From Apostichopus japonicus (lineage: Eukaryota; Echinodermata; Holothuroidea; Aspidochirotida; Stichopodidae): a stretch of DNA of 64,000 nucleotides. Shown here one piece after another: positions 6,247 through 58,776 of the stretch. Numbering within the stretch: the first letter of the stretch is position 1; each line of letters starts with the position of its first letter. The position numbers and the translations under genes are program-made. Location: positions 19,337,501 through 19,401,500 of the forward strand of contig NC_092569.1 of the NCBI RefSeq assembly GCF_037975245.1, read 5' to 3'. Below the pieces are notes generated by a model, which worked only from the letters and a program-made list of their open reading frames with translations, did not search any database and was not told the DNA's origin.

Positions 6247-6330
6247 ATGTGGATCCCAAGAAAGCTACGATTTCTTATACAATTTTGTTTCTTTGTCCTG
6301 TCAAGAAATATAATCTGTTTCCACGGAGAG
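6247..6330 (+). CDS. Copy A exon 1: signal peptide
   Basis: ATG in a good context (AAAATGT) opens 28 codons beginning MWIPRKLRFLIQFCFFVL: a basic start, then a hydrophobic core typical of a secretory leader. The exon ends in phase 0 at a consensus donor, GAG|GTGAGT. The following intron is about 3.3 kb. Confidence 0.75.
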
Positions 6331-9300: not shown

Positions 9301-12300
9301 TTAACATAATTTCTTTTTACTTAGCTCAATGATCCCAACGCATTTCAACATGCAACATTTTATGACTTTTAGAACATTTATGACTGAACTCAATTCCAAC
9401 TCCTAATACACTAGCTTTACCTCAATCCTCGCTGTTATTACTCAAGTAAAGTATAAAGAAGTATTTGCCATTTGCAGGAAATAAGCACAGCCGACTCAAT
9501 TTCGTATATATGCCCTCGTAGTTTACCACTGAACATAAATTATAAATAAGTTAACGACATGTTAGTCAAATTAAAACTGTAGGGAAGAATATGTTGACTA
9601 TATTTATCGCTGATAACATATGCATGATGCTTTTAATATCCTTTACTCAGAGTAATCAACAACTCTTTGTAGGAGCGACTGAAAGCAAAGTTCACAGTGA
9701 GTGTTTATTCATTTTCTATGATTTAACGTTTTTCTTATGTTTTTTCAATCTCCTGTTCATCGTACAATTTCTCATTGACTGATATTTTTATTCCTCATAA
9801 TCCATGCCAAACATTTGTCACGGCAACATCCGTTAAACTTGTTATGATCACTTACTCTCGTGTAATATGAGAAGAGAAATATTCCTTCTACTTATTACTT
9901 CCTTCAGTCACGAGCAAGAAAAACATTTCGACATAAGAAATAACGATAGTTTTTAATAAATCTTCGACCCTATATATTTGAACTTTGTACACATATTGCA
10001 TGATAAAGCCTTTAATTATTTGTCAACATATTGTACGGTTCACGTTGTGAATTAGTAAAGGATGTGTTAAATATTTGTCCATGAATGCGCTCATTTTTTA
10101 TAGCAGTATTTTTATCACTTTATATAAAAACTATTTAAAAGGTTATTTACATTTGACTGCTAAACTTGCAGATTATCTAAGCAACCTTGTGAAATTATCA
10201 TTCACGTTTTTTTTATCGTGTATTAGTTGCAAATTGTGTACCAAATATTAGCTTTCATACATTTCTGTCACATATGTTCCAAGATTATAAATTTTGTACA
10301 AAAGTAAGAAACCTAAAGTAAACTTTTTTTTTGGAAAGGAAGTGATGTCTGAATTGAGTTTAACTTTCAAAAGCAAATTAGTAATAAATTATGTTATTAT
10401 GTTTTTCGGGATAACCTTTGATATTTTTTTATAGTATATCCGATAGTAAAATCATTTTAATTATTTTCATAACTTTTACTAAGCTTGAATGTCCCGTTTA
10501 GTTATTATTTTTTGTGACTTTTCTACAATTATTTAGATAAGTGTCGTTGTGACGAAATTTTCAATAAATTATCGATTTATAAAATATCACTGACAGTTCA
10601 AGACATGTCAAGGCAAACCAGGCTATCATTTATCATATCAATTGTCACCGGTATATGTGGTAAAATTGATCAATAAACTAAAAAGGCAAAACGTTCATCT
10701 AAGTTAATAAAGAAATATGCTTCCATATTGCGTCTACTGACGGGTTCAAAGTCATATTTTCTGTTAAAACTCATGTTGTACCGTTGCAACTCATGTCTTA
10801 CTATTGCACTCTTGCTCTTGGTGTGTTCATCTAGCATTAAGTCGAGATGAAACATAATTATTGCTTAATTATTCATTTTGGGTTTACTAATAGGTATCAT
10901 TCATGGATAAACTTCTGTCGTTACATGATAACCTAAAGACAAATCTTGAAGACAACTGAGTTCTCATGATATCAGAATCACTACTTGTTCTTCTTTTACA
11001 GACTATTTTTTCCTTTATCAACGTCCTGAATACCCTAGAGATTGTCACGAAGTGTTGCATCGTTGTTCATCTACAAGTTCCAGTGGTGTTTATCTCATTA
11101 AACCAGACGGTTATGCCGAACCTTTCGAAGTCTACTGTGATAACACCGTAGAGGATGGCGGATGGACGGTACGTAGTTCAAATTGAATTATGAATGTTGA
11201 TGCCAAACATCAGCCAGATATTCAGCTTCTTTCACATCAATGAGCAAGTTTTATAATGTTAGCCCTCATGTTTCCTTAATACTTTAAATTATTTTATGAT
11301 CGTGTTTACTTTTTCATCCTCTTTTCATAAAATTCATTTAAGTTGATCACAATATACATTTCTAACTAAAATACAAAGAAAATTGTACTTTTTACCATGC
11401 TATAACTCGTTTCATTTGTCATCCTTTCCATAATGTATCTGAATATGCATATGAAATACTTCTTCACCCAGATGGTCAGCTTCTTAAGATCTTCAAATGG
11501 GATTGCTTCTGTAGTGGCTAACAATCTGCCATAGATTTAAACTTTTATGTCACAAAATAAAGAACAAAACATTGTTTGAAACGTTAATGAATGGTAAGTT
11601 TTAATAATAATTCTAATTTAACTTAATATCTCGTATGAATTATGTTCAAATTACTTGTTCTGTTATGCAGATCATACAACGTCGGTTTGACGGAACGATT
11701 AATTTTAATCGCAGCTGGGAAGATTATCAGCTAGGATTTGGTTTTCTTTCGAGTGAATTGTGGATCGGTAATAAGAGGCTTTCATACTTAACCAATCAAA
11801 AGAGATATCAACTCCGTATCGACTTGACGACAACAGATGGTTCGTCTTTTTATGTGACGTATGACACATTCCGAATAAGCGATGACTTCAGCAACTACAA
11901 GCTCGTCAAAGCAGATATAACCAACAGAACAGTAGGTAAATATATAGAAAACCTTTCAGATACGTTTATTTATGTCCCAAATAAGTCTTATCTGGTCGAT
12001 CGAAGATTCGATATATATGAAGAAATAAGGATGCAGGATTTCGAAGGATATCACGAATTTCAAGCTAACTAAAGTTGTCACGATTAAGGAGTGTGATGAT
12101 ACCTTCGTCAATATTCAAGCTTATCAATTTTTTGTTTTGTTTACTTCCCTTCACCTTAATTCGTGTTTCTATTATTATACACTGTTTTTGTTGTGTATAA
12201 TGTGAAGAAAAAAATTAACACAATGAACTAAATTGAACTTACTAATTAACTCCCATAGTTACATCCTTCTGTACAGCCTATGTCTACAGCTATATCATCT

Positions 12301-15300
12301 CCTAAGCCTAATCTTCATCTAATCTATTCATTTTATTTTTGCTTTATTCATTGTTTTTTGTCTAATTTAGCCAACTGCCTGTCCAACTGACTTGTTAAAA
12401 GTCAGTTTGAATTTTCAAATTATAAATCTGTCTTCGTTTCAGTTTGTCTCTGACGAAGATCTAGCTAGGATTGATAAGCCAGGCCCTCTCACTTATTCAG
12501 TTTACGAAATTGTATTTGATCATAAGCTAGACTAAAGTCAAGTATCATTTCAAAATATTTTCGCATCAACTAGAACGATCTTGAAATGTCACAGTTCCTT
12601 CTTGCGTGTTAATACTTTTATACAAAGTGGTGTCGTTGTGGAGTAGAAAAACTCAGACTCAGAACATATTTCGTAATTTATAGAAATTGTCAACCAAACA
12701 CCAAACCACTGCTTGAAGTTATAACCCTTTATTAAGCCAAGTTCGTTATGTTTCGTTACAGAGTTCATAATAAGAATAGCTAATATTTAAGTATATTTTT
12801 CTTATTCTCATAGGCTATGTAAATAACTACATTGAATGGTGTCCAACAAATAAAACCTACAATGAGTGTCAACTTTGCGAGGCTACCTGTGCAGATCCTG
12901 ATAGTTGTATCAATACTTCCTGCAAAGGATCTCATTCGTGTGTCTGTCCTGGAGGATTTTTGATGAACGATGATAACTGCATTAGAATAGAGGACTGCGG
13001 ATGTTACATCGCAAGTGAAACAGATGGAGAGAAAGGTGTATTGTTAAAAGTAAGTATTTTCTTTCAGATTGTGATATCTATTACCAACAGTGTAACAATT
13101 TAAATGATGCTTTCAAAAACTGGGGTTAGTGGATCGATTTGCATTTGCCTCTGACCTCTTCCAACCCGCACCCTCGTCAACTTTGGATATACACAATTTT
13201 GCCAGTAAAGTTAGGAAAACTGATATATCTTGTACGTGTTTGCAGTATTTCATCTTATCACTACTTGAAGAAACCTTTTCAAATCCCTAAAGTTACTTAT
13301 GATACGTGTAACGATTTTCTACTCTCCAGGAAGGAGGAATTTACGTCTCTCCAAACTGTGACAAGAAATGTTCTTGTACGAATAATCATCTTTCGTGTGA
13401 CGATAGTTATCAATGCGATTCTAACGCAGATTGTGAAGAAAGGAACGGTATTTTACAATGTTACTGTCCGCCAGGGTTTAGCGGAGACGGCACACAGTGT
13501 AGGCCTACAGGCGGCACAGTTCCTTCTGACTGTAAAGAACTGTACAACAATGGCGAGAGAACAAGTGGCGTTTATGAAATCAAACCCACCATTTGGCCTG
13601 ACTCTCCGTTTGAAGTTTACTGTAATATGTCTGACGGGGGAGGCTGGACGGTAAGTGTGACAGTTTTTCTTAAACCAGTGATCCGCAAGCTTTTAGGTAG
13701 ACGACACACAAGTCATCCATGAATACCAAACCACGACCCACCAGAGCCCAATTCCTCATAACGGACGTTCAAAATACATAAAACCTAGTTTGGATTGTGA
13801 ATATGATGTTCGATTTGATACCCGTAAGCTAGTTTAAACAACGTTGCTGTATGTAGAACACGGGATTAGGCTGCCCTTTAGACGGAGAAAGTTGAATGCC
13901 TAATTTATTGCCACTAGGAGCGCATTCCCTAAGAGGAAGCATTCTCTATGTTTTGTTAGTACTTTCAGGAATTTATTAGTAGAAACTTCACGAAACTTTA
14001 CATATTGGTTGTTCTTTGGATAAGGGTTGATTTTTTGTGTGTAATTTTTATATTAACGGGCAATAGTTATGGCATCAAAATATTGGTGGTGAGAACCACT
14101 TCTAAATGACTGTAATGATGTAATACATGTATGTTCCTTAAGAACTAAATATTTACGTTGATTGTTTTAGGTATTCCAGCGTCGCGTTGATGATTCACAA
14201 GACTTTTATCTTTATTGGGATGACTACAAGATTGGCTTTGGTAATCGAAGTCGGAACTTCTGGCTCGGAAATGAAAAGATATATAGCTTGACGAACCAAA
14301 GACAGTATGAACTCCGGATCGACTTAGTTGGCCGTTACGGCGCCCCTTACTACGCCAAATACGATTTATTTCGTATCAGTGACGAGAACGATAACTTCAG
14401 GCTAGATGTTGGAGATTATTCTGACGGAGATGCAGGTAGGTTAATTTCTGCCGAATTATCAATCATTTCCTGTTATTTTCGTCAGTTTGACATCATATAT
14501 CATGCTTATATCTCCCGAATTATCAATCCTATCATGTTATTTTTTTTTGTCAGTTTGACATAATATATATTGTTTATTTAAGAACGAAGTATGTAGTACT
14601 ATTTGTATGATATAATTCACTATCCAATCACTTACTAGTTTATACACAATGTTTTGTCTTTGGTGATGATTCGACGGCAGATCCTGGTGACTTACTGTGG
14701 TAATAGTTTGTTGATCCAAGGAAGGTGCATATATCTAGTAGGTAGAAATCTCTGGACAAATAGCTGGACCTTTGGACCTACGAACACTCAAAATCAAGAC
14801 ACTTCAGTTAGTATCATATAAACCCGCCATATCATACAGTACCTAATTATGTTTATACTTCTTTGCATAAGGCACATACATAGGGAAAAGATCAGTAATT
14901 TATATTCGACAAGATAGACCGAATACTAGCAGTAATTGTTAATGTTATCAGACATGTAATGTAACGACCAAATATTACAAATCCATACTCAAAAGGAAAA
15001 TATGGAAACATCACAGGGTAAGATGATTATGTACCCTACGCAAATCTTCATGCACACGTACAGACACACACGCGTGCGCACAAGCACAAACTTAAATATG
15101 CATATTGTATCATTGTACGGTGCTGGACTCCCGAGTAGCTCGTGTTTAGAGGGTACGATAACAGATCTTGACAATTGGAGTTGTTTTAAGTGGTAGGCTA
15201 ACAATTCTAGATATGAACGATTCGTTAAAGTTGATCTCTATTGATTGATTTATTTACTCCTTCTTCTATCAAATTTTTGTCAGCGATAAGTGATGTAAGC

Positions 15301-16372
15301 AAAGATATCACATTTATTCATACCGCCAGCATGCTATATAAAAGTAACGATGATGAGATTATTCTCGTTCGAATACAAAACAGATGCAGTCGACATGCGT
15401 GCTCGCCTAGAACAGCTACGTCATAAAATATCATTGTAGGTCATGTAAAAAAAGCTGACAGCATCAATTAAATATATTCTTAACTATTACATAGCAACAG
15501 TAAACCAAATACACCGTAGCTGTTCTTGTAAAGGAAAGCCGGATCATTGTAATATTGCACTGAATAGAAATGTTCTGCATGACAATTGTCCTCTATTCCA
15601 GTCTTGAAAACTTATAGATAAAAATAAAATCAGATGTAAGGATGACAAAACAAAGTTATTCAAAATGAGGACACATGAATGAACTTCCTTTAATTTACAA
15701 ACGGCCAGATCGGGGAACTCTTGCGGTACTTATGAATATTACGATGAAAGTAGTGCATACTTCGACCATGTCGGAATTTTTTTTATTGATGTCATCATGA
15801 AAGAAAATTCGTTACAAAAAAAAAAAAAACTAAACGCTTTCACAATATGAACAATAGTTCAACAACATAATAAGCCAAACATAATATTTGACAACCCCTT
15901 TCCCTCCCCCTTCCCTTTCTACATATTTTCGTGTTTAATAATCATAGATATAACACGACGTTTAGTTTAACACACGTTAATTAAAATCAAAATCACATTT
16001 AATATCTAATTGTTGGAAGAACATTTTGCTAAGTATACTGAATCGATGCAATGAACTAATTTTTAAATTTCTTTCTGTTTCTTCTTCTTTTGTTTTTATT
16101 TAACAGGTGATTCGCTGACCTATCATGATGACAAACCGTTCACTACACGAGACAACGATAACGATGACGTCGACTATAGTTATTTTAGCTCCGAAGGTAA
16201 CAATGGAGCCCGTTATTATGATGGTGCATGGTGGTACGGTGATTATTATTATTCATCTCTAAACAGTCCCTATGGGAGTTATTACTTTTATTGGTATAGC
16301 CTTCCAGGAAATTCTTATTATAACATAAAATTTACAGAAATGAAAGTTCGCGCAATCGATGAAGAACAATAA
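6247..16372 (+). CDS. FReD gene copy A: secreted half-FReD/TIL/EGF/FReD protein (intact)
   Basis: Eight exons join in frame: 6247-6330, 9651-9696, 11002-11168, 11671-11935, 12814-13049, 13330-13650, 14171-14435 and 16107-16372 (1650 nt, 549 residues plus stop). All introns are GT..AG. Order: signal peptide (1-28), linker (29-44), incomplete FReD1 (about 49-188), TIL domain (197-251), TILa/EGF-like region (267-323), full FReD2 (333-549). FReD hallmarks are GVYLI, FEVYC, GGWT, QRRxD, GFG, WLGN and GAWWY. Invertebrate FReD proteins are secreted lectins that bind acetylated or other glycans, often in immunity; that role here is inference. Sequons (N-R-T, N-K-T, N-T-S, N-M-S, N-R-S) suggest glycosylation. 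This is the only copy without a coding lesion. Confidence 0.85.
6331..9650 (+). other. Copy A intron 1
   Basis: AT-rich intron with no exon-like frame. It is homologous throughout to intron 1 of copies B and C and to the orphan stretch at 39.67-41.11 kb, which shows that these regions arose by duplication. It contains a short (AAT)n near 9187-9208. Confidence 0.7.
9651..9696 (+). CDS. Copy A exon 2: short linker
   Basis: 46 nt between TTTACTCAG and GTGAGTG, encoding SNQQLFVGATESKVH plus one base (phase 1). Same length in copy B and 3 nt shorter in copy C. It links the leader to FReD1. An ATG at 9591 happens to be in frame through the acceptor in A only; copies B and C have one extra base there, so I treat it as intronic. 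Confidence 0.7.
9697..11001 (+). other. Copy A intron 2
   Basis: No exon seen. Near 10,800-10,845 it holds the short unexpanded sequence (ACTATTGCACTCTTGCTCTT) that corresponds to the site of the large minisatellite in copy B. Confidence 0.65.
11002..11168 (+). CDS. Copy A exon 3: start of FReD1
   Basis: 167 nt, phase 1 to 0. Encodes the classic N-terminal FReD subdomain: RDCHEVLHRC, SGVYLIKPDG, PFEVYCDN, DGGWT. The extra cysteine in HRC is unusual next to the FReD2 counterpart. The donor GTACGT follows GGWT, the same place where the FReD2 exon 6 ends. Confidence 0.85.
11671..11935 (+). CDS. Copy A exon 4: middle of FReD1
   Basis: 265 nt, phase 0 to 1, encoding IIQRRFDG, FNRSWEDYQLGFG, LWIGN, YQLRIDL and TYDTFRISDD. 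It is the paralogue of exon 7, with identical length and phases. The expected next FReD exon (calcium site and GWWY region) does not follow; a TIL exon is spliced on instead. Confidence 0.85.
11936..12072 (+). other. Open read-through extension of exon 4
   Basis: If the exon 4 donor is not used, the frame stays open for 45 more codons (GKYIENLSDT...) to TAA at 12070-12072. Copy C keeps the same extension (to 54849); copy B stops after 14 codons. An intron-retention isoform ending here would be leader plus half a FReD. Confidence 0.25.
12073..12813 (+). other. Rest of copy A intron 4
   Basis: No exon seen. Homologous to the corresponding introns of B and C, with small indels. Confidence 0.6.
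12814..13049 (+). CDS. Copy A exon 5: TIL cysteine-rich domain
   Basis: 236 nt, phase 1 to 0. Residues 197-251 follow the trypsin-inhibitor-like pattern CPxNxxYxxC-C-C-C-C-C-CxC-C-CxC: WCPTNKTYNEC, QLC, EATC, DSC, TSC, SCVCPGGF, DNC, EDCGC. In VWF, zonadhesin and mucins such domains organise disulfides; free-standing ones inhibit proteases. Which applies here is unknown. Confidence 0.8.
13330..13650 (+). CDS. Copy A exon 6: TILa/EGF-like module and start of FReD2
   Basis: 321 nt, phase 0 to 0. EGGIYVSPNC-DKKC-SC-LSC resembles the TIL-associated (TILa) region. It overlaps a six-cysteine EGF-like stretch (LSC, YQC, ADC, LQC, YC, CPPGFSGDGTQC). After a Gly/Thr linker come SDCKELYNNG, SGVYEIKP, PFEVYCNM and DGGGWT, the start of FReD2. 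Confidence 0.8.
13651..14170 (+). other. Copy A intron 6
   Basis: 520 nt, the same length as copy C intron 6 and nearly identical to it by eye, in contrast with the more diverged introns 1-3. No exon seen. Confidence 0.7.
14171..14435 (+). CDS. Copy A exon 7: middle of FReD2
   Basis: 265 nt, phase 0 to 1: VFQRRVDDS, YLYWDDYKIGFGNRS, FWLGNEKIY, YELRIDL, YAKYDLFRISDENDNFRLDVG. Typical FReD B-subdomain motifs. Differs from copy C by about one residue. Confidence 0.85.
14436..16106 (+). other. Copy A intron 7
   Basis: No exon seen. The first ~1 kb is almost identical to copy C; similarity drops gradually after about 15.5 kb. A long pyrimidine tract (TTTCTTCTTCTTTTG) precedes the exon 8 acceptor in all three copies. 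Confidence 0.65.
16107..16372 (+). CDS. Copy A exon 8: C-terminal (calcium/ligand pocket) part of FReD2
   Basis: 266 nt ending in TAA at 16370-16372. Encodes DSLTYHDDKPFTTRDNDNDD, with the DxDND calcium loop at residues 477-481, then GAWWY at 501-505, SLNSPY and KFTEMKVRAIDEE. The two cysteines that normally flank GGWWY (NCA..., WWYxxC) are missing. This exon varies most among copies. Confidence 0.85.
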
Positions 16373-20204: not shown

Positions 20205-21682
20205 GTAAGTGCCAAACCTCGAAGTCCTTGGCTTACGTTAGCCTAAAAAAACAACTTAGACAGGCCCAATACAAATATACTGTATCATTTGGTATGTCTA
20301 GCATAGGCTTATACTAAGTGTATTGTCCTAGGATTTAACTTTCAGTGATGCGTTCCTTAGTCATACTTCATCCATAAGAATGACTGATGGTAATTATTGT
20401 AGAGCGAATGCGCGTCACAATATTGTATTCGTTAGATTAATCGTCCATTAGGCATTCGGTGCAAAGCACCGTATGTTCGTAAAATTTCGTTAACTAGGCG
20501 AGGTTACAGTAACATTACAGACATTACATAGCTTGTAATTGCATGGTGGCCCTTGTACTTTCTAGTTGGTATTATAGAAAAAAAACAGTCTTGAAAAGGA
20601 ACAGCCGTAATATACTTAACACTGGCCCAAAGTTAATAAGACTACATAGGCCTAGCTGTATTATCTGCAGTATTCTACTACAGTGCACTGTACTGTAGGC
20701 TAGGTATAGTAACGGATAGTTACGTTAATTTTAAGCTACCGTGTTAAGTAAGCACAGTGCAAACGCAAGTGCTGATGATAAGTTAGGCCTCATGTGCCCA
20801 CTGATGCAAATGTTATCAAAATTAGCTACATGACAGAAATGTCAGTTGCAGTTCGCCAATATAAATATCATACTAAAATAATAAGAAAGTTGTACTATTT
20901 ACCCTGCTAACCTTTCAGTCGTCTGTGATAATGGCGTATATAATGGTGGGTGGACGGTACATAGTTTGAATTATAATATTGATGCCAAACATCAGCCGAA
21001 AATTCAGCTTTAACACCTAATGAGCAAAGTTTTGTACTGTGATCTTTCATGTTCCCCTAATCCTTTACACTATTTTATGATCATGTTTACTTTTTTTTTC
21101 TTTTTCATCTTTTTCTTTTATAAATTTGATCACAATGTACATTCCAAGCTAAAATACAAAGAAAGTTTTCCTATTTACTCTGCTAGAACTCGCTTCATTT
21201 GTTATTTTTTTTTCCAGAATGTATCTTAATATGCATATCAAATATTACTTGCATTCACTCCATTGACAAACTCCGAAACCTATAGTAGATTTTCAGACGT
21301 CATCAAAAATCCCACGGACACACCCAAAATTTCTTACGAACCACATTGGAGTTGACCACGAAGACTAGTTTAAAAATTGATTTGTTACGCAAACCATCCA
21401 AAAAAAGATATCCCTGTTGCCGTATGTAACATATGTAGGTACCAAATAGTCGACAAAACTTTGAGATTTTAAGATTGGCTTGATTTTTTGCTATTGTGAG
21501 GGCTTTCCCTAAGAGGAAACATTATATTAGCATATACATTTTTTGACGGGGGAGGGGGGGGGGGGGGTTGGATCAACAGACAAATATGAATGAACTCAAA
21601 ATATTGGTGGTGGGAAACACTTTCAAATTACTAAATGTCTGTATGTTCCTTCAGAACTGAATCTTTACGTCGATTGTTAGAG

Positions 21683-22630
21683 GTATTCCAGCGTCGCGTT
21701 GATGATTCAGAGTACAATTATCTTTATTGGGATGACTACAAGATTGCCTTTGCTGATCGAATTCAGAATTTCTGGCTCGGAAATGAAAACATATATATCG
21801 TGACGACCCAAAGACAATATGAACTCTGGATCGACTTTGTTAACCTTTAAGGTGATTCTTACTACGCCAAATACGATTTCTTTCGTATCTTGGATATTCT
21901 GCAATTCTAATTTATTGATGGAGAAGCACATTTCACACATTTGCAGATCTGGTTTTTGCCACCTTCGGAATACTAGTCGTCAGCTCAAAAACTGGTCCAT
22001 GATTTAGTTTCGTCGAGAATTTATTGGTGTGATTCACTGATCGCTGGACTTCCTATCTGTAAGTTGAAACCTTAAATTGGCGTTCAGAATACTGCCGCCA
22101 AAATTGTAGTTGAGGCTCGTGGTACGACCATATCACAGACATTTTTATCAGATTTCATTGGTTACCTTTTTGTTCAAAGAGTTTCAAATTATTGTTGTTA
22201 GTTGAAAAAAGCCCCTCATGGCCTAGCCCAGCTTTATTTATGTGAATTGGTTCAGTGGTTAGTTCCTGTTAGAAGTCTTCGCTCAGGTTCTATATATATA
22301 TATAGCGAAAAAGAAGTCTGTCACAGAGTCTAAGAGTAATGAAACATTTTTATGAGATTTTATATAAATATCATGCTTTTGATAATTTAGGTCCACGACG
22401 TTTCAACGCTTCTCCTCCATATGTCCGTTCTAGTCAAACTCATAACGTCTTTAAAAGTCGCATCAAAACACATTTATGCAAAATTCCTTTAATCTCTAAT
22501 TTGTGTACTTTCTTTCATGTTAAAAGTTTATTGAGTTTCAAAGATTCAACATTATTTTATTATTTGTAACATTCGTAGCAGTGACGAGAACGACAACGAC
22601 AGGCTAGATGTTGGCATGACGGAAATGGTA
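21683..22630 (+). pseudogene. Fragment D exon 7, interrupted
   Basis: Starts after an intact AG acceptor with VFQRRVDDS and YLYWDDYKI, but has Trp in place of Arg in the YELRIDF motif, a stop at 21848-21850, and a 682-bp insertion after TTTCGTATC. The exon resumes at 22580 with AGTGACGAGAACGA. Confidence 0.8.
21890..22571 (+). mobile_element. 5'-truncated, decayed non-LTR retrotransposon (CR1/L2-like ORF2 end)
   Basis: Flanked by an 8-bp near-perfect target duplication (TTCGTATC at 21882-21889, TTCGTAGC at 22572-22579). Conceptual translation in shifting frames gives the usual C-terminal reverse transcriptase order of Jockey-superfamily LINEs: HISHICRSGFCHLRN, a degenerate LHWLP-type region, KAPHGLAQLYLCELV, VPVRSLRSGS, then FNASPPYVR and FKSRIKTHLCK. 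Several stops and frameshifts show it is dead. Clade assignment is tentative. Confidence 0.75.
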
Positions 22631-27638: not shown

Positions 27639-30600
27639 ATTTTCGTTTGTTCGTTAGATTTAAAAGTAAACCTTCGAGTGAATGTCAATGTATTGCATTG
27701 AAGTAACGTGTACAATGTGTAATCAAAGGATATGCAAACATTAGTTGAAAACGAATCCCCACGTTTAGATTGTCATAATTCGAATTTGGATAATTCTCTT
27801 CAGTTCTTATTTGTTCAGAGCAATACAAGAACTTACTAAAAATTATTAAACATTGATCAGCATAAAGAAAGTCAGAAGTCTGAAGAACAGAAACTTCGGT
27901 AAATTGATAAAATTTTATTTTTCTCGTTGCATTTTGGTATACATACTTCAATGAAACTTAAAAGCAAATTTTTACACAGTTCGCTGTCAAACATAATATT
28001 TTGTAAAAGGAGAGAAGTAAAGAAACTCTCTCTGATTGGCCCTTCTAATTGTTCAGAATATACACAAAATAACAAAAAAACATTTATTGTACTATTTTCT
28101 GAGAAGAAAACTAAACAAAGTGTTTTTTAAGTATATTTAATGATCCCAACGCATTTCAACATGCAACAATTTAAGAATTTTAGACAATTTAGGACTGAAC
28201 TCGATTCAAACTCCTATACAATAAGCTTAACTCAAACCTAGCTGTTATTACCCAAGTAAAGTATAGGAAAGTATTCGCCATTTGCAGGAAACAGGCACAG
28301 CAGATTCAATCTAGTACACATATGACCTCATAGTTCACGACTGAATATAACATGTAAATAAGTAAAGCACGAGTGAAATTGAAAATTTAGGAGAAAATAT
28401 GTTTACTATATTTATCGCTGATAACATATGCATAATGCTTTTGATTCTCTTTTACTCAGAGTAATCAGCAACTGTTTGTAGGAGCGACTGAAGGAAACGT
28501 TAAGAGTGAGTGTTTATTCATTTTCTATTAATTAACCCTTTTCTTATATTTTCTGTTTCCTGTTAATCATACAATTTCTCATTGATTAATATTTTCATAT
28601 CTCATACTCCATGACAAACATTTGTCACGGCAACATATGTTACAATTGTTATGATCACTAACTCTCGTGTAATATGAGAAGAGATATATATTTGTATTTT
28701 ACTTATTAATTCCTTCAGTCACAAGCAAGTCAATACATTTCGAACGTAGGAATTAACGACAGTTTGAACAAATCTTCGACAATATATGTTTGAAATTTGT
28801 ACACAAATTGCATGAGAAGGCTATATATCAACATATGGTACGTTACACGTTGTAAAATAATAAAGGATGCTCGGTGGTCTTAAATATTTGTTAATTCATG
28901 GTTTCATGTTTTTTTCTCAGTATTTTAATCAATGTATATAAAAGAATTTAAGTTTATTTGTATGTTGCATATATTGCATATGTTATTTATATATTTTGCA
29001 ATTTGTGCACCAAACATTAAGCTTGTGTACATATACATCACACATGTTTCATGATTTTTTTCCGTACAAAGTAATAAACCTGAAATAAACTTTTCTTGAA
29101 AAGAGTTGTAATGTCTGAATTGAGTTTTACGTTCAAAAGCAAATTAGTAATAGTTTATGTTGTCATGTAATTCAGAATGTACTCTTTTTTATTGTTTATT
29201 GTAGTACATCCCATACTCAACCTTCATTTTCATAGCTTCCACTTAACTTGAATTTTTCCGTTCAGTTCAGAATTGACCATCTATTATTTGTTTAACGTTA
29301 CAACAGCTATTTGGAGAAGTGTCTTTGTGAAGAAGTTTTCAGTAATGTATTGATTTATAAAATATCACTAAATTTTCAAGACTAGTGAAGGAATACCAGG
29401 CTATCTTTTATCATATCAATTGTAATAGTATTTTGAAAAAAAAACGTTATATTTAGTAAAACTTATCAATCAACTAAAAAGCAAAACGTTCCTCTAAGTT
29501 ATATAAGAATGCGCGTCTCTATAGCGTCTAATGACGGGTTCAAAGTCATTTTGTAATACTATTTTGAAAAAAAAAACAACCTCGTGTCTTACTATTGCAG
29601 TCTTGCTCTTGTCTGCTGCAGTCATGTATGTTGCAGTCATGTCTGTTGCAGTCATGTTTGCAGCAGTCATGTTTGCAGCAGTCTTGTCTGCTGCAGTCTT
29701 GTCTGCTGCTGCTGCTCTTGTCTGCTGCTGCTGCTGCTCTTGTCTGATGCAGTCTTGTCTGCTGTAGTCTTGTCTGCTGTAGTCTTGTCTGCTGCAGTCT
29801 TGTCTGCTGCAGTCTTGTCTGCTGCAGTCTTGTCTGCTGTAGACTTGTCTGCTGCAGTCTTGTCTGCTGCAGTCTTGTCTGCTGCAGTCTTGTCTGCTGC
29901 AGTCTTGTCTGCTGCAGTCTTGTCTGCTGCAGTCTTGTCTGCTGCGGTCTTGTCTGCTGCGGTCTTGTCTGCTGCGGTCTTGTCTGCTGCGGTCTTGTCT
30001 GCTGCGGTCTTGTCTGCTGCGGTCTTGTCTGCTGCAGTCTTGTCTGCTGCGGTCTTGTCTGCTGCAGTCTTGTCTGCTGCAGTCTTGTCTGCTGCAGTCT
30101 TGTCTGCTGCTATTGTCTGCTGCAGTCTTGTCTGCTGCAGTCATGTCTGCTGCAGTCTTGCAGTCTTGCTATTGATGTGTTAATTTAGCATTAAGCCGAG
30201 ACGAAATATATGATTGTTTAATTAAACCCATTTTGGGTTTACAAATCTGAAATATTCATGGATAAACTTCTGTCGTTACATGATAACATAATGACAAATC
30301 TTGAAGACAACTTTGTTCTCATGATATCTGAATCGCCCCTTGTCCTCCTTTTACAGACAATGTTTTACTTTATCAGCGTCCTGAATACCCAAGAGAATGT
30401 CACGAAGTGTTGCATCGTTGTTCATCAACAAGTTCCAGTGGTGTTTATCTCATTAAACCAGACGGTTATGCCGAACCTTTCGAAGTCTACTGTGATAACA
30501 CCGCAGATGATGGTGGATGGACGGTAAGTAGTTCAAATTGAAATATGAATGTTGATGCCAAACATTAGCCTAATATTCAGCTTCTTTCAAATCAATGAGC

Positions 30601-33600
30601 AAAGTTTTAAAATATTAGCTAGTATATTTCCCTCATCGTTGACGTTCTTTTTAAACCAAACGATTAGCAGAAAATGCTTCAATAATATAACAATATTTGT
30701 ACTTGACATTTGAGAAATAACAAGCAAAGTCTGTGAAAAAAAGTCATTGATCGAAAGCTCAGCTGATGATGAACATGTTTACATTGTTTGTTTACGTTTT
30801 TCATAAAATTAATATTAAGTTGATCCCAATGTATATTTCATACTTAAATACGAAGAAATTGTATCTCTCATGACTTATGTTCAAATTACTTGTTCTGTTA
30901 CGCAGATCATACAACGTCGGTTTGACGGATCGATTAATTTTAATCGCAGCTGGGAAGATTATCAGCTAGGATTTGGATTTCTTTCGAGTGAATTGTGGAT
31001 CGGTAATAAGAGGCTTTCATACTTAACCAATCAAAAGAGATATCAACTCCGTATTGACTTGACGAAAACAGATGGTTCGTCTTTCAATGTGACGTATGAC
31101 GCTTTCCGAATAAGCGATGACTCCAACAACTACAAGATCGTCAAAGCAGAAATTACTAACAGAACAGTAGGTAAATATATAGAACTACTTTATAGTACGT
31201 TTATTCATTTCTAAATAAGTCTTGTCTTGTCGAAAGAAGTTTCGATATATGTGAGTAAATAAGGATTGCAATGGATATGAAAAAAATTAAGATGACTAAA
31301 ATGTCACTATTAAAGAGAGTGATGATACCTTTATCAATATTCAAGCCCGAACGGGTTCTTAAGTTTACTTCTCTCCGCCTTATTTCTTGTTTCTACTACA
31401 CTGTGTTTGTTGTGTATAATGTGAAAACAACCAGCATACTGAACTGAACTGAACTTACTAATTATTCCCCATTTTGTAACATCTTTCTGTACAGTCTATC
31501 TGTTTAATTATATCATCTCCTAAGTCTGATCTTCATCTCATTAAGTTTTGCTTTATTCATTGTTGTTTATATAATTTAGTGAACTTTAGCGATAACATCT
31601 TGATGAGATCGTAATATAGTTTTGGTGATAATATCTTTATGGGAACGTAATATAGTTTTTATCAGTTACATTCACATTTGGAGTAATTCTGTCAAAATTG
31701 TCAACCAAACACAAAACCACTGCTTGTAGTTCTCACTCTTTACTTGCAATTAGCAATACTGGTTATGTTTACTTGCGAAGTTCACTAAATCAATGGCTAA
31801 TGTTTTTCATATTTTTTTATTCTGCTAGTCTTTGTAGATAACTACATCGAGTGGTGTCCAACAAATAAAACCTACAATGAGTGTCAACTTTGCGAGGCTA
31901 CCTGTGCTGATCCTGATAGTTGTATCAATACTTCCTGCAAAGGATCTCATTCGTGTGTCTGTCCTGACGGATTTTTGATGAACGGTGATAACTGCATTAG
32001 AATAGAGGACTGTGGATGTTTCATGGAAAATGAAACAGATGGAGAGAGGGGTGTATTGCCAAAAGTACGTGTTTTCTTTCAGATCGTGATATCTATTACC
32101 AATAGTGAAAATAATTTAATAGATGCTTTCAAACTGGAGTTAGTGGATCGGTTTGCATTTGCCTCCGACCCCTTGCAACCCGCATCCTCTTCAACTTTGG
32201 ATATACGCAGTTTTGCCAGTAAAGTTAGGAAAACTGATATATCTTGTATATGTATGCAGTTTTTCATCTTATCACTACTTAAAGAAACTTTTTCAGATCC
32301 CTAAAGTTACTTATGATGCCTGTAACGATTTTCTACTTTCCAGGAAGGAGGAATTTACGTCTCTCCAAACTGTGACAAGAAATGTTCTTGTACGGATAAT
32401 CATCTTTCGTGTGACGATAGTTATCAATGCGATCCTAACGCAGATTGTGAAGAAAGAAACGGTCTGTTACAATGTTACTGTCCGCCAGGATATAGCGGAG
32501 ACGGCACACAGTGTAGGCCTACAGGCGGCACAGTCCCTTCTGACTGTAAAGAACTGTACAACAATGGCGAGAGAACAAGTGGCGTCTATGAAATCAAACC
32601 CACAAATTGGCCTGACTCTCCATTCGAAGTATACTGTAATATGTCTGACGGGGGAGGCTGGACGGTAAGTGTGACAGTTTTTTTTCTTAAACCAGTGATC
32701 CGCAAGCTTTAGGCCGACGACACACAAGTTATCCGGAAGGACCAAACTACCACCCACCATAGCCCCATCCCTCAGAACGGACGTTCAAAATAAATTAGCT
32801 TGGATTGTAAATATTATGTCAAACAATGACTTGAAGATAATCAATCTCCATATACATATATCTGAAAACTCCACCAACATATATTTAAGACCCACGTTCG
32901 ATTTTACACCCGTAAGCAAGTTTAAACAACGTTGCCGTATGTAGAACACAGGATTAGGCTACCCATTAGACAGAAAAAGTTGAATGACTAATTTATTGCC
33001 ACTGTGGTATTACTATCAGGGATTTATTTTTAGAAACTTCATAAAACTTTACCTATTGGTTGTTCCCTTGAATGAGAATTGATGTTTTATTTATTTTTAT
33101 TTTGTTACGTGCAATAGTTATGACATCACAATATTGGTGCTGGAAAACACTTCCGAATAACTATAATTAATATGTATGTATTTTTCTTAAGAACTAAATC
33201 TTTACATTGATCATTTTAGGTATTCCAGCGTCGCGTTGATGCTTCACAAGACTTTTATCTTTTTTTGGGATGACTACAAGATTGGCTTTGGTAATCGAAG
33301 TAGGAACTTCTGGCTCGGAAATGAAAAGATATATGGCTTGACGAACCAAAGACCATATGAGCTCCGGATCGACTTTGTTGACAAAAATGGCGATCCTTAC
33401 TACGCCAAATACGATTTCTTTCGTATCAGTGACGAGAACGATAACTTCAGGCTAGATGTTGGAAATTATTCTGACGGAGATGCAGGTCGGTTAATATCTC
33501 CCGATTAATCAATCCCATCATGTTATTTTCGTCAGATTGACATCATATATCAAGTTTATTTTATAACGAAGTGTTTATAAAGAAGTATGTAATACTATTT

Positions 33601-35465
33601 GTATGAAGTCCACTAGCCAATAACTTACTAGTTTATACAAGCTGTTTTGCCTCTGTTGATGGTAGAATCTGGTTACTTACTTTGGTGATAATTTGCTGAT
33701 CTAAGTAAGGAGCATATATCTATAAGGAAGAATTCTCTGGCCAAATAGCTGGACCTTACGACCTTTGGACCTACGAAAACTGAAACTCAAGACACTTCAG
33801 TTAGTAATATATAAACCCGCCATGTTATACAGTACCTAATTAATTCTATACTTCTTTGCATAAGGCGCACACATAGTGAAAAGATTAGTTATTTATATTC
33901 GACAAGACAGACCGAATACAAGCAGTAATTTTTAATGTTATCAGACATGTAATGTAACGACTAGACGTTTTTACAAATCCATTACTCAAAAGGAAAGTAT
34001 GGAAATAACACAGGATAAGATGATTATGAACCATACGCAAATTTTCACTCATACGAATACACCCACGGGCGTGGGCACAAACAAAAACTTAAATATTGAA
34101 TATATTATCATTTCACTGGGCTGGAAACACGCGTAGCTCGTGTTAGAGGTTACGATAACAGATCTTACCCTCGGGAGTTGTTTTAAGGTGTAGTCTAAAA
34201 GTTCTATAAATTAAAGATACGTTCAAGTTGATCTTTATTGATTTATGTATTAACAACTTCTATCAAACTTTTGTTAACTTAAAGTGATGTAAAACATAAT
34301 ATCACATTTATGTACACCGCCAGCATGCTAGATAAAATTAACAGTGATGAGATTATTATCGTTCGATTACAAACCAGTTCCAAAGAATCAATCACAAATT
34401 GAGCCTTTAAATTCCCGACTAATCCAACCTACATGGATTCATGTTTGCTGGCCTGGGACAGCTACGTCATAAAATATCATTGTATTGGAAGGATTACATG
34501 TAGGCTAAGGGAGCTCACAGCATAAAATAAATATATTCCTAACTATTACATGACAACAGTAAACCAAATACACGGTAGCTGTTCTTGTAAAGGAAAGATG
34601 AATCACTAGTTTAACGCTGACACAGAGCTGATCTGTATGACAATTGTCCTCTTTTTCCAGTTTTTAACAACTTATAGATCAAGATAAAAACAGATTAAAA
34701 GATATTGATAACAAAAAAAAACATATCAAAAATGAGCACACATGAATTAACGTCCTTTAGTTTTCAAAATACCAGATCGGGGAGCGCTTGCGGTACTTAT
34801 ACAAATATTGTGATGAAAATTAGCCTTACATATACCTCGACCATGTAGGTAGGATATTATGGTGATGTAATCATCAAAGAAAATTCGTTACATATAGAAA
34901 ATCATCATAATCTAAACGCTTACACAATGTTAACAATGGTTCAACAGCATAACAAGCCATAAAAAGAAGTTGATAGCCTCTTTACCATCCCCTTTCCCTT
35001 TCTACATATTTCGTTTTTAATAATCATAGATAATACACGAATTTTAGTTTAACACACGTTAATCAAAACCACATGTTATATGAAATATCGTAATTACTGG
35101 GATAACATTTTGCTAAGTATACTGAATCGATACAATGATTAAATTTTGATTTTCTTTTCTGTTTCTTCTTCTTTTGTATTTATTCAACAGGTGATTCGCT
35201 GACCGACCATGATGACCAACCGTTCACTACACGAGACAACGATAACGATGATTATGACTTTAGTGATTACAGCTCTGAAAAGAACAACTTAGCCCGTATT
35301 TATGATGGTGCATGGTGGTACATGAATTATGACTATAATAATGATTATATTTCATCTCTCAACGGTCCCTATGCGAGTTATTCCTTTTATTGGAATACCC
35401 TTCCAGGTTCTTTTAATTACATTAAATTCACAGAGATGAAAGTTCGCGCAATCGATGAAGAATGA
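24799..35465 (+). CDS. FReD gene copy B: own signal peptide, one frameshift in exon 7
   Basis: Exons 24799-24879, 28460-28505, 30357-30523, 30906-31170, 31829-32064, 32344-32664, 33220-33485 and 35191-35465, all with GT..AG introns and copy A phases. The domain order is that of copy A: leader, half FReD1, TIL, TILa/EGF, FReD2. Exon 1 is unrelated to the A and C leader. Exon 7 is 266 nt instead of 265: a run of seven T at 33260-33266 carries one extra base and leads to TGA at 33271-33273. If real, FReD2 is lost and the product ends after the EGF region and the start of FReD2. If it is a homopolymer error, the gene is intact (551 codons plus stop). More diverged from A than C is. Confidence 0.7.
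24880..28459 (+). other. Copy B intron 1
   Basis: Starts with unique sequence; 25.23-25.50 kb matches the block lying upstream of exon 1 in copy A. After a deletion near 25.5 kb it matches copy A intron 1 from about 6.69 kb on. A (AT)n microsatellite lies at 27,601-27,637. No exon seen. Confidence 0.6.
28460..28505 (+). CDS. Copy B exon 2: linker
   Basis: 46 nt, SNQQLFVGATEGNVK plus one base, flanked by CTCAG and GTGAGT. Confidence 0.65.
29597..30168. repeat. 15-bp minisatellite (GTCTTGTCTGCTGCA)n in copy B intron 2
   Basis: About 37 head-to-tail 15-mers with A/G variants (CTGCAG versus CTGCGG) grouped in blocks, and shorter CTG-rich units at the 5' end. The unit is a multiple of three and lacks stops, so long artificial frames (SRQDC repeats on the minus strand, SAAVL on the plus) run across it. 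Copy A has only the unexpanded seed and copy C has lost the site. Confidence 0.95.
30357..30523 (+). CDS. Copy B exon 3: start of FReD1
   Basis: 167 nt; LLYQRPEYPRECHEV, GVYLIKPDG, FEVYCDN, DDGGWT. Intact. Confidence 0.75.
30906..31170 (+). CDS. Copy B exon 4: middle of FReD1
   Basis: 265 nt; IIQRRFDGSINFNRSWEDYQ to ITNRTVG. Intact and close to copy A. Reading through the donor gives only 14 more codons (stop ending at 31214). Confidence 0.75.
31171..31828 (+). other. Copy B intron 4
   Basis: Homologous to copy A intron 4 with deletions. No exon seen. Confidence 0.55.
31829..32064 (+). CDS. Copy B exon 5: TIL domain
   Basis: 236 nt with every TIL cysteine of copy A kept. It begins VFVDNYIEWCP and ends GVLPK at GTACGT. 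Confidence 0.75.
32344..32664 (+). CDS. Copy B exon 6: TILa/EGF-like and start of FReD2
   Basis: 321 nt, open, ending DGGGWT|GTAAGT. All cysteines of copy A are kept. Confidence 0.75.
33220..33485 (+). pseudogene. Copy B exon 7 with +1 frameshift
   Basis: Reads VFQRRVDASQDFYLFLG then TGA. One extra base in T7 (33260-33266) relative to A, C and D. Downstream of the run the original frame is fully open (WDDYKIGFG, FWLGNEKIY, FRISDENDNF), so the shift is recent or a sequence error. Confidence 0.8.
33486..35190 (+). other. Copy B intron 7
   Basis: Homologous to copy A intron 7 but more diverged, with a short unique insert near 34,380-34,450. No exon seen. Confidence 0.55.
35191..35465 (+). CDS. 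Copy B exon 8: C-terminal part of FReD2
   Basis: 275 nt, stop TGA at 35463-35465. Keeps DNDNDD and GAWWY, but the loop after WWY is three codons longer than in A (MNYDYNNDYISSLN), and many pocket residues differ. Both canonical cysteines are absent, as in A. Confidence 0.8.
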
Positions 35466-53782: not shown

Positions 53783-53949
53783 ACTATTTTTTCCTTTATC
53801 AACGTCCTGAATACCCAAGAGATTGTCACGAAGTGTTGCATCGTTGTTCATCTACAAGTTCCAGTGGTGTTTATCTCATTAAACCAGACGGCTATGCCGA
53901 ACCTTTCGAAGTCTACTGTGATAACACCGTAGATGATGGCGGATGGACG
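53783..53949 (+). CDS. Copy C exon 3: start of FReD1
   Basis: 167 nt, open; YFFLYQRPEYPRDCHEV to DDGGWT|GTACGT. Confidence 0.7.
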
Positions 53950-54447
53950 GTACGTAGTTCAAAATGTATTATGAATGTTGATGCCAAACATCAGTCGGAT
54001 ATTCAGCTAATTTCACCTAAATGAGCAAAGTTGTGTATTATTAGCTCTCATGTTCTCCTAATCCTTTAAATAATTTTATCATCATGTTTACTTTTTTATA
54101 CTTTCTTCATAAAACTCATGTTAAGTTGATTACAATATACATTTCCTACTGAAATACAAAAAAAAATGTACAATTTACCATGCTAGAACTCGTTTTATTT
54201 GTCATCCTTTCCATAATGTATCATAATTTGTATATGAAATACTTCTTCGCTCCGGTTGTCAGCTTTTTAAGATCTTCAAATGGGATTGCTTCTGCAGTGG
54301 TTCACAATCAGCCTTGAATTTAAACTTTATGTCACAAAATAAAGGAAAAAGGGAAAAAAGTTAATGAATGGTAAGCTTTATTAATAATTCTAATTTAACT
54401 TAGTATCTCCTATGAATTATGTTAAAATTATTTGTTGTTTCATGCAG

Positions 54448-54712
54448 ATCATACAACGTCGGTTTGATGGATCGATACGTTTTAATCGCAGCTGGGAAGA
54501 TTATCAGCTAGGATTTGGTTTTCTTTCGAGTGAATTATGGATTGGTAATAAGAGGCTTTCATACTTAACCAATCAAAAGAGATATCAACTCCGTATTGAC
54601 TTGACGACAACAGATGGTTCGTCTTTTTATGTGACGTATGACACATTCCGAATAAGCGATGACTTCAGCAACTACAAGCTCGTCAAAGCAGATATAACCA
54701 GTGGAACAGTAG
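54448..54712 (+). CDS. Copy C exon 4: middle of FReD1
   Basis: 265 nt, open; differs from copy A at only a few residues (SIRFNRS, ITSGTVG). The read-through frame continues to 54849 as in A. Confidence 0.7.
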
Positions 54713-55543
54713 GTAAATATATAGAAAACCTTTCAGATACGTGTATTAATGTCTCAAATAAGTCTTATCTGGTCGATAGAAGATTCGATATATATGAAGA
54801 AATAAGGATGCAGGATTTCGAAGGATATCACGAATTTCAAGCTAACTAAAATTGTCACGATTAAGGAGTGTGATGATACCTTTATCAATATTGAAGCTTA
54901 TAAGTTTTTTGTTTTGTTTACTTCCCTTCACCTTAATTCCTGTTTCTACTACACTGTTTTTGTTGTGAATTATGTGAAGAAAAAAATTAACACAATGAAC
55001 TAAATTGAACTTACTAATTAACTCCCATAGTTACACCCTTCTGTATATACAACCTATGTCTACAGCTATATAATCTCCTAAGCTTAATCTTCATCTAATC
55101 TATTCATTCTATTTTTGCTCTATTCATTGTGTTTTGTCTAATTTAGCCAACTGCCTGTCCAACTGACTTGTTGAAAGTTAGTTTGAATTTTCAAATTAAA
55201 AAATTGTCTTCGTTTCAGCTTGTCTCTGACGAAGATCTAGCTATGGTTGATAAGCCAGGCCCTCTAACCTATTCAGTTTACGAAATATTTTCGCAACAAC
55301 TAGAACGATCTTGAAATGTCACAGTTCCTTCTTGCGTGTTAATACTTTTATACAAAATGGTGAGGTTGTGGAGTATAAAAACTCAGACTCGGAACATATT
55401 CCGTAATTTACAGAAATTGTCAACCAAACACCAAACCACTGCTTGAAGTTCTAACCCTCTATTTAACAAAATTCGTTATTTTTCGTTAAAAAGTTCATAA
55501 TATGAATAGCTAATTTTTAAGTATTTTTTTCTTATTCTGTTAG
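54713..55543 (+). other. Copy C intron 4
   Basis: Begins with the 45-codon read-through frame shared with copy A (to 54849). The rest is homologous to copy A and shows no exon. Confidence 0.5.
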
Positions 55544-55779
55544 GCTATGCAAATAACTACATCGAGTGGTGTCCAACAAATAAAATCTACAATGAGTGCC
55601 AACTTTGCGAGGCTACCTGTGCAGATCCTGATAGTTGTGTCAATACCTCCTGCAAAGGATCTCATTCGTGTGTCTGTTCTGAAGGATTTTTGATGAACGG
55701 TGATAACTGCATTAGAATAGAGGACTGCGGATGTTACATCGAAAGTGAAACAGATGGAGAGAAAGGTGTATTGTTAATA
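55544..55779 (+). CDS. Copy C exon 5: TIL domain
   Basis: 236 nt, open, all TIL cysteines kept; CSEGF replaces CPGGF. Confidence 0.7.
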
Positions 55780-55983
55780 GTAAGTATTTCATTTCAGATT
55801 GTGATATCTATTACCAACAGTGTAACAATTTCAACTTTGGATATACACACTTTTGCCAGTAAAGTTAGGAAAACTGATATATCTTGTGCGTGTTTGCAGT
55901 ATTTCATATTATCACTACTTGAAGAAACCTTTTCAAATCCCTCAAGTTACTTATGATACGTGTAACGATTTTCTACTCTCCAG

Positions 55984-56286
55984 GAAGGAGGAATTTACGT
56001 CTCTCCAAACTGTGACAAGAAATGTTCTTGTACGAATAATCATCTTTCGTGTGACGATAGTTATCAATGCGATTCTAACGCAGATTGTGAAGAAAGGAAC
56101 GGTCTGTTACAATGTTACTGAGACGGCACACAGTGTAGGCCTACAGGCGGCACAGTCCCTTCTGACTGTAAAGAACTGTACAACAATGGCGAGAGAACAA
56201 GTGGCGTTTATGAAATCAAACCCACCATTTGGCCTGACTCTCCGTTTGAAGTTTACTGTAATATGTCTGACGGGGGAGGCTGGACG
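55984..56286 (+). pseudogene. Copy C exon 6 with 18-nt deletion and stop
   Basis: 303 nt. The deletion joins TACTG to AGACGG and so removes CPPGFSG of the EGF-like part; the junction codon is TGA (56119-56121). The frame after the junction is otherwise open through DGGGWT. Confidence 0.85.
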
Positions 56287-56806
56287 GTAAGTGTGACGGT
56301 TTTTCTTAAGCCAGTGATCCGCAAGCTTTTAGGTAGACGACACACAAGTCATCCATGAATACCAAACCACGACCCACCAGAGCCCAATCCCTCATAACGG
56401 ACGTTCAAAATACATAAAAGCTAGTTTGGATTGTGAATATGATGTTCGATTTGATACCCGTAAGCTAGTTTAAACAACGTTGCGGTATGTAGAACACGGG
56501 ATTAGGCTGCCCTTTAGACGGAGAAAGTTGAATGCCTAATTTATTGCCACTAGGAGCGCATTCCCTAAGAGGAAGCATTCTCTATGTTGTGTTAGTAATT
56601 TCAGGAATTTATTAGTAGAAACTTCATGAAACTTTACATATTGGTTGTTCTTTGGATAAGGGTTGATTTTTTTTGTGTAATTTTTATATTAACGGGCAAT
56701 AGTTATGGCATCAAAATATTGGTGGTGAGAACCACTTCTAAATGACTGTAATGATGTAATACATGTATGTTCCTTAAGAACTAAATATTTACGTTGATTG
56801 TTTTAG

Positions 56807-57071
56807 GTACTCCAGCGTCGCGTTGATGATTCACAAGACTTTTATCTTTATTGGGATGACTACAAGATTGGCTTTGGTAATCGAAGTCGGAACTTTTGGC
56901 TCGGAAATGAAAAGATATATAGCTTGACGAACCAAAGACAGTATGAACTTCGGATCGACTTAGTTGGCCGTTACGGCGCCCCTTACTACGCCAAATACGA
57001 TTTATTTCGTATCAGTGACGAGAACGATAACTTCAGGCTAGATGTTGGAGATTATTCTGACGGAGATGCAG
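56807..57071 (+). CDS. Copy C exon 7: middle of FReD2
   Basis: 265 nt, open, one residue different from copy A (VLQRR for VFQRR). Confidence 0.7.
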
Positions 57072-58776
57072 GTAGGTTAATTTCTGCCGAATTATCAATC
57101 ATTTCCTGTTATTTTCGTCAGTTTGACATCATATATCATGCTTATATCTCCCGAATTATCAATCCTATCATGTTATTTTTTTTTTGTCAGTTTGACATAA
57201 TATATATTGTTTATTTAAGAACGAAGTATGTAGTACTATTTGTATGATATAATGCACTATCCAATCACTTACTTGTTTATACACAATGTTTTGTCTTTGC
57301 TGATGATTCGACGGCAGATCCTGGTGACTTACTGTGGTAATAGTTTGTTGATCCAAGGAAGGTGCATATATCTAGTAGGTAGAAATCTCTGGACAAATAG
57401 CTGGACCTTTGGACCTACGAACACTCAAAATCAAGACACTTCAGTTAGTATCATATAATCCCGCCATATCATACAGTACCTAATTATGTTTATACTTCTT
57501 TGCATAAGGCACATACATAGGGAAAAGATCAGTAATTTATATTCGACAAGATAGACCGAATACTAGCAGTAATTGTTAATGTTATCAGACATGTAATGTA
57601 ACGACCAAATATTACAAATCCATACTCAAAAGGAAAATATGGAAATATCACAGGGTAAGATGATGATGTACCCTACGCAAATCTTTATGCACACGTACAG
57701 ACACACACGCGTGCGCACAAGCACAAACTTAAATATGCATATTGTATCATTGTACGGTGCTGGACTCCCGAGTAGCTCGTGTTTAGAGGGTACGATAACA
57801 GATCTTGACAATTGGAGTTGTTTTAAGTGGTAGGCTAACAATTCTAGATATGAACGATTCGTTAAAGTTGATCTCTATTGATTGATTTATTTACTCCTTC
57901 TTCTATCAAATTGTTGTCAGCGATAAGTGCTGTAAGCAAAGATATCACATTTATTCATACCGCCAGCATGCTCGATAAAAGTAACGATGATGAGATTATT
58001 CTCGTTCGAATACAAAACAGCTGCAGTCGACATGCGTGCTCGCCTAGAACAGCTACGTCATAAAATATCATTGTAGGTCATGTAAAAAAAAGCGGAGCTT
58101 CAACAGCTGACAGCATCAATTAAATATATTCTTAACTATTACATAGCAACAGTAAACCAAATACACCGTAGCTGTTCTTGTAAAGGAAAGCCGGATCTCT
58201 TGTAATGTTACACTGAAAAAGAACTGTTCTGCATGACAATTGTCCTCTACTCCAGTTTTGAAAACTTATATATAAAAATAAAATCAGATGTAAGGATGAC
58301 AAAACAAAGTTATTCAAAATGAGGACACATGAATGAACTTCTTTTAATTCACAAACGGCCAGATCGGCGAACTCTTGCGGCACTTATGTATGTTACGACG
58401 AAAGTAACGCATACTTCGACCATGTGGGATTTTTTTTTATTTTTTATTGATATCATCATGAAAGAAAATTCGTTACAAAAAAACAAAAACAAACTTAACG
58501 CTTTTACAATAATAATACTAGTTCAATAACAACATAATAAGCCAAACATAATAGTTGATAACCCCTTTCCCTTCCCTCTTCGCCTTCTATTTATTTTCAT
58601 TTGTAATGATCATAGACAATACACGACGTTTAGTTTAGCACAAGTTAATCAAAACCACATGTAAGTGTCAATATCTAATTATTGGAATAACATTTTGCTA
58701 AGTATACTGAATCGATGCAATGAACTAAATTTTTAAATTTCTTTCTGTTTCTTCTTCTTTTGTTTTTATTCAACAG
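57072..58776 (+). other. Copy C intron 7
   Basis: The first ~1 kb is almost identical to copy A intron 7; the last ~350 bases are less similar. No exon seen. Confidence 0.6.

Follow-up and report, generated by a model that had tools for sequence, protein, structure and literature searches.

A sea-cucumber FReD gene family with a conserved N-terminal half-FReD, probably of single origin by fusion

The locus and the domains of copy A

The window analysed here, C9:19337501-19401500, is a stretch of 64,000 nucleotides of the genome of the sea cucumber Apostichopus japonicus. It carries three copies (A, B and C) and one relic (D) of a gene whose product would combine a half-FReD, a TIL domain, a TILa/EGF region and a complete FReD. 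In copy A, no damage was seen and all exon borders are GT/AG (Table 1). Exon 2 was placed at its position because its acceptor lies inside an apparent ATG frame at 9591 in copies A, B and C, which is broken in copies B and C.

It had been proposed from the letters of copy A that exons 3 and 4 encode a truncated FReD (FReD1) onto which a TIL exon is spliced. The Pfam scan of the spliced protein gives this same domain order. Fibrinogen_C scores 302.5 bits, split over two stretches, TILa 33.2 (cut-off 27) and EGF_3 32 (cut-off 28.5); TIL scores 24.2 on the whole protein, slightly below its cut-off of 24.5, while isolated pieces of copy A give 27.3 for TIL and 36.4 for TILa. The last third of a FReD comprises the calcium site and the ligand pocket and returns one strand into the core. 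FReD1 covers positions 2-125 only of the 221 of the Fibrinogen_C profile (132.2 bits) and ends ahead of these two features, whereas the second FReD (FReD2) is complete (3-219 of 221, 180.9 bits for a cut-off of 22). The half-FReD is therefore real.

The calcium-site motif and the GxWWY pocket are hallmarks of FReDs, and a pocket cysteine pair is likewise expected. Alignment of exon 8 to tenascin-R places DNDND and GAWWY at the two first sites, which are thus both present in FReD2; the cysteine pair is absent from copy A FReD2 in this alignment and present in the related locus L042. Furthermore, the splice borders agree with the preliminary description: exons 4 and 7 are equal in length and both are entered in phase 0 and left in phase 1, and exons 5 and 8 are both entered in phase 1.

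Table 1. Exons of copy A and position of the other copies in the window
Feature	Position	Strand	Description
Copy A, candidate exon 1	6247..6330	+	28 aa, signal-peptide-like; proposed from hydrophobicity and phase-0 donor GTGAGT
Copy A, exon 2	9651..9696	+	46 nt, entered in phase 0 and left in phase 1; acceptor and donor present in A, B and C
Copy A, exon 3	11002..11168	+	FReD1 start, extra cysteine
Copy A, exon 4	11671..11935	+	265 nt, FReD1 middle, final FReD1 exon
Copy A, exon 5	12815..13049	+	TIL domain
Copy A, exon 6	13330..13650	+	TILa, EGF, FReD2 start
Copy A, exon 7	14171..14435	+	265 nt, FReD2 middle
Copy A, exon 8	16108..16372	+	FReD2 calcium site and pocket, tyrosine-rich, stop codon
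Copy B, exons 3-8	30357..35465	+	exon 4 30906-31170, exon 5 31830-32064, exon 6 32344-32664, exon 7 33220-33485, exon 8 35192-35465
Copy C, exons 3-8	53783..59036	+	exon 4 54448-54712, exon 5 55545-55779, exon 6 55984-56286, exon 7 56807-57071, exon 8 58778-59036
Relic copy D	~20900..22615	+	end of exon 3 and intron 3, followed by exon-7-like pieces that contain a stop

Splicing, distribution and constraint of the half-FReD

An unseen exon located after exon 4 could complete FReD1. A profile of eight pocket exons (exon 8 and its counterparts) was thus applied to intron 4 of 30 loci (at L018, which has no exon 5, over 1500 bases), and no completing exon was found in any of the 30 (best E 1.6). 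As controls, the profile recovered the pocket exon in all four loci included in it (E<1e-29) and in 10 of the 11 further loci that were not part of it (E<=1.3e-15); it missed L063, where no pocket exon was found in the 2.8 kb searched. The gap between exon 4 and the TIL exon is 274 bp in L015 and L024. The exon-4 donor is kept in all 30 loci and the exon-5 acceptor in all 29 loci that have exon 5. All seven divergent loci have a phase-1 donor exactly 265 nt into exon 4, four of them with other in-frame candidates as well. Alternatively, exons 1-4 and 5-8 could be two genes with separate transcripts. An in-frame ATG does lie in the open stretch before the TIL exon in three of 29 distinct loci, two of which (L029 and L037) also show a hydrophobic run. 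However, the 26 other loci have no such ATG in the 150 bases examined, the read-through after exon 4 varies from 2 to 47 residues, and donor and acceptor are kept, so that separate transcripts appear most unlikely.

Genome searches covered the whole assembly (671,581,487 bases, 35 contigs). Since the searches with exon 4 and with the TIL exon each listed 150 matches, the number of loci is a lower bound, i.e., at least 150 exon-4 relatives and at least 150 TIL exons. For at least 78 of the 150 TIL exons listed, an exon-4 relative from the other list lies 201-1166 bp upstream in the same orientation. L059, which was chosen as a TIL exon with no FReD neighbour among the listed matches but turned out to carry a half-FReD, raises this to at least 79. 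Among the matches listed, no exon-4 relative was found within 2.5 kb downstream of a TIL exon or on the opposite strand; this is no test of the order, as the FReD2 middle exon that lies downstream of TIL is too unlike exon 4 to be listed.

Sixteen copies, including A, B and C, form a tandem array of 308 kb on one strand, with 89-100% identity to the exon-4 query and no stops in exon 4, while the remaining exon-4 matches among the 150 listed have at most 70% identity. A second family (L025-L038, C9 15.6 and 17.8-18.5 Mb) keeps the succession of exon 3, exon 4, TIL and exon 6 in all 14 loci examined, the TIL exon of L032 being frameshifted. The order is kept through the pocket exon in L039, L042 (C20), L043, L044, L045 and L059. 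Altogether, the order half-FReD-TIL-FReD2 is common to seven divergent loci, spread over two chromosomes, which bears out the earlier proposal that this order predates the local duplications.

Two loci depart from this scheme in their middle part. At L018 (C9:19509919-19513182), the TIL exon is gone, as is the TILa/EGF portion of exon 6, and the half-FReD lies directly before FReD2 sequence. L044 (C9:30463500-30473000) has extra TILa/EGF-like pieces between TIL and FReD2, perhaps a repeated module, and the match to its pocket exon is split in two.

The half-FReD is under purifying selection. In the array and in family 2, respectively, pooled dN/dS is 0.24 and 0.15 for exon 4, 0.33 and 0.22 for exon 3, 0.43 and 0.29 for TIL, and 0.53 and 0.29 for exon 6; the array values include the damaged L020 and L022 for exon 3 and rest on nine copies, two of them damaged, for exon 6. 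Between families, dN/dS of exon 3 is 0.13, the other exons being saturated at silent sites. Among the seven divergent loci, mean identity is 62.6% for each FReD1 exon, 51.8% for FReD2 exon 7 and 47.3% for TIL (exons 6 and 8 left out of the comparison). The half is thus under tighter conservation than the corresponding exon of the complete copy, which suggests a use of its own for the front part. In favour of a non-functional leftover, at least six of the 16 array copies show damage in one or more of the exons covered (L010, L016, i.e., copy C, L018, L020, L021, i.e., copy B, and L022; for the 13 copies outside the window, exons 1, 2 and 7 were left out of this survey, apart from a piece of exon 7 in L018). 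However, exon 4 has no stop in any of the 30 loci, its pooled dN/dS is 0.15-0.24 and the FReD1 exons are more alike than TIL or FReD2 exon 7, which makes a mere relic extremely improbable.

Ancestry of the two FReDs

The preliminary description attributed the two FReDs to an internal duplication of one FReD, followed by the phase-matched replacement of its last exon by a TIL exon. That these exons of copy A match in length and phase agrees with this, but exons 4 and 7 share 43.5% identity only and the FReD trees do not group the two domains. These trees were made for exon 3, exon 4 and both together, with the leader cut. The 10 FReD1 rows form one clade (support 98/94 for both exons, 99/95 for exon 4, 83/81 for exon 3), which is sister to the single-FReD genes L008 (in L040), L061 and L062 (98/98 for both exons; 93/85 for exon 4 and 92/90 for exon 3, not starred). 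A clade uniting FReD1 and FReD2 is rejected (p-AU 0.0128 for exon 3, 0.0107 for exon 4, 0.00102 for both and 0.00764 for a smaller set), as is a grouping of FReD2 with the single-FReD genes (p-AU 0.0081, 0.019 and 0.00076). Furthermore, the single-FReD genes, which lie on the same chromosome, share the exon 3/exon 4 border and the phase-1 exit of the half, although exon 4 of L040 has 271 nt. In L061 and L062, exons 3 and 4 are followed by a pocket exon and no intervening TIL was found; no TIL was found between the exons of L040 either, whose pocket exon has a stop.

On sequence grounds, FReD1 and FReD2 are thus shown to be of separate ancestry. Because FReD1 stands beside the single-FReD genes and the clade of FReD1 with FReD2 is rejected, a fusion of two FReD gene types through phase-1 introns would explain the arrangement better, and more simply, than duplication and replacement, which now appears very unlikely. 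The possibility that the single-FReD genes are recombinants of a FReD1 exon 3 and a FReD2 exon 7, the pattern seen in relic D, was also considered and rejected, the trees of each exon still placing them beside FReD1, although with no starred support.

The single-FReD genes L040 and L061-L063 (C9 16.2-16.7 Mb) lie in a stretch with many listed FReD exons and share a leader, YFFYQEPEYPRDC, and an odd extra cysteine.

It should be pointed out that several results weigh against one clean fusion or against a special role of the half. L060 (C15), chosen in the same way as L059, is a TIL-TILa-EGF-FReD gene, with no half-FReD found in the 5.4 kb upstream, and was a candidate for the second parent. However, the seven FReD2 rows are rejected as a clade without it (p-AU 0.0149 for both exons, 0.00385 for exon 4), because L060 falls beside copy A FReD2; with L060 included, the clade is rejected for exon 3 only (0.028, against 0.082 for exon 4 and 0.259 for both). 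This weakens L060 as a clean parent: judging from these tests, it could as well be a member whose half was lost, or the product of an exchange, as a parent. FReD2 exons may have been exchanged between genes, so that one clean fusion is not proved for the FReD2 side and any second parent is tentative. The single-FReD genes may also have secondarily lost exons 5-7, which is compatible with the trees, since these give no direction by themselves. FReD1 carries its extra cysteine in 29 of 30 loci, all but L022, where exon 3 is damaged; as the single-FReD genes have such a cysteine too, it is not special to the half. Lastly, at least six array copies are damaged, as mentioned above, and a structure model of exon 4 alone, made with a 3-row alignment, is uninformative as to its fold (pLDDT 38).

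Possible working, known relatives and the other copies

All in all, it seems probable that these loci form a genuine spliced FReD family with a kept N-terminal half-FReD, most likely of single origin by fusion, whose products would work as secreted lectin-like proteins. The 5' part of a single-FReD gene (leader and two FReD exons) would have become linked, by way of phase-1 introns, to a TIL-TILa-EGF-FReD gene. The fusion would have dropped the last FReD exon of the first gene, and the half, having arisen once, would now be found at about 80 loci or more. The product could be a lectin that is secreted and probably oligomeric. Its conserved half-FReD, which has the odd extra cysteine, would be a structural or pairing module, TIL/TILa/EGF a cysteine-rich spacer, and the complete FReD2, with its variable tyrosine-rich pocket exon, the end that binds microbial or tissue glycans.

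Alternative splicing is the main rival explanation of the conserved front part. Exons 5-7 form a symmetric phase 1-1 cassette, and skipping them would join exon 4 to exon 8 and give a complete FReD1, while keeping them would give the half-FReD-TIL-EGF-FReD2 form; a single pocket exon would thus serve two front halves, and exons 3 and 4 would owe their conservation to the short form. When exons 3-4 are joined directly to exon 8, the product matches Fibrinogen_C over 2-219 of 221 positions with 166.8 bits (versus 180.9 for FReD2); exon 8 has a phase-1 acceptor in 8/8 loci checked, and exons 3-4 are constrained. However, nothing in the sequence demands skipping, three exons must be skipped together, and the matching phases carry little weight because any fusion at phase-1 introns yields them; skipping is possible but doubtful. 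In a similarly tentative view, the half-FReD could be an independent domain, kept at about 80 loci, that serves for pairing and presents variable, tyrosine-rich FReD2 pockets, the inclusion or omission of exons 5-7 giving either front half the same pocket exon.

Exon 8 was read over its whole length in 15 of the 16 array copies (the three of the window and L046-L058) and in part in L055. It has conserved ends and a variable middle (23.8% tyrosine, 14.0% serine), with codon-sized indels just after WWY. Its dN/dS is 0.40 for the first part, 0.83 for the middle and 0.14 for the last. Positive selection on the pocket was considered and not retained, since the bootstrap interval of pN-pS for the middle spans zero; the codon comparison rather suggests relaxed or diversifying change. 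Longer insertions after WWY are seen in the pocket exons of L043, L045 and L059.

Several known proteins share part of this architecture. FIBCD1, ficolins, tenascin-R and angiopoietins, all matched in the PDB, align to copy A FReD2 over nearly its full length, and their first part aligns to FReD1 over the length of the latter; unlike them, copy A has no pocket cysteine pair. To our knowledge, none of these proteins carries a half-FReD in front, the PDB chains compared being mostly isolated domains. The Fc fragment of IgG binding protein, which has TIL/TILa repeats, shares the succession of TIL and TILa (best stretch 9-127 of 142 residues). However, in contrast to such zonadhesin/FCGBP-type proteins, copy A has FReD and EGF domains, and Pfam gives no VWD or C8. 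Mollusc FREPs are a diversified immune family with a C-terminal FReD and one or more N-terminal Ig domains; copy A shares the C-terminal FReD, but no Ig family is found in it by Pfam at E<=1. Among the top-ranked titles and abstract openings of the open-licence PMC literature, no half-FReD or FReD-TIL protein is described, although gene models of such proteins may well exist unnamed in databases.

The FREP genes of A. japonicus itself are greatly expanded, clustered and in tandem, and are up-regulated during visceral regeneration (PMC5638244). The genes studied here resemble them by the FReD expansion, the clustering and the tandem copies, but the passages of that paper on expansion and regeneration mention no half-FReD or TIL module (PMC5638244). 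The architecture shows how one part of a very large sea-cucumber FReD expansion is built; FREP expansion in A. japonicus has been linked to regeneration in print (PMC5638244). The half-FReD loci could serve as natural variants for testing the function of the front part of FReDs.

As for the other copies of the window, the claim that all three share one order stands for the succession of exons, which is common to A, B and C, but B and C are damaged. Exon 7 of copy B is frameshifted by a 1-nt insertion; in copy C, an 18-nt deletion in exon 6 creates a stop, and exon 1, which matches candidate exon 1 of copy A in position, is frameshifted. No exon 4, 5, 6 or 8 was found in relic D. An open stretch upstream of copy B (24799-24879) is signal-peptide-like, has a phase-0 donor and is unlike exon 1 of copy A; copy B may thus have a different first exon. 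Just 5' of exon 3 of copy B, a minisatellite-like repeat (29494-30168) is open in several frames (QDCSR or LQQTR units). Between copies B and C, positions 38685-47318 carry pieces of another repeat unit, with no FReD exon matches.

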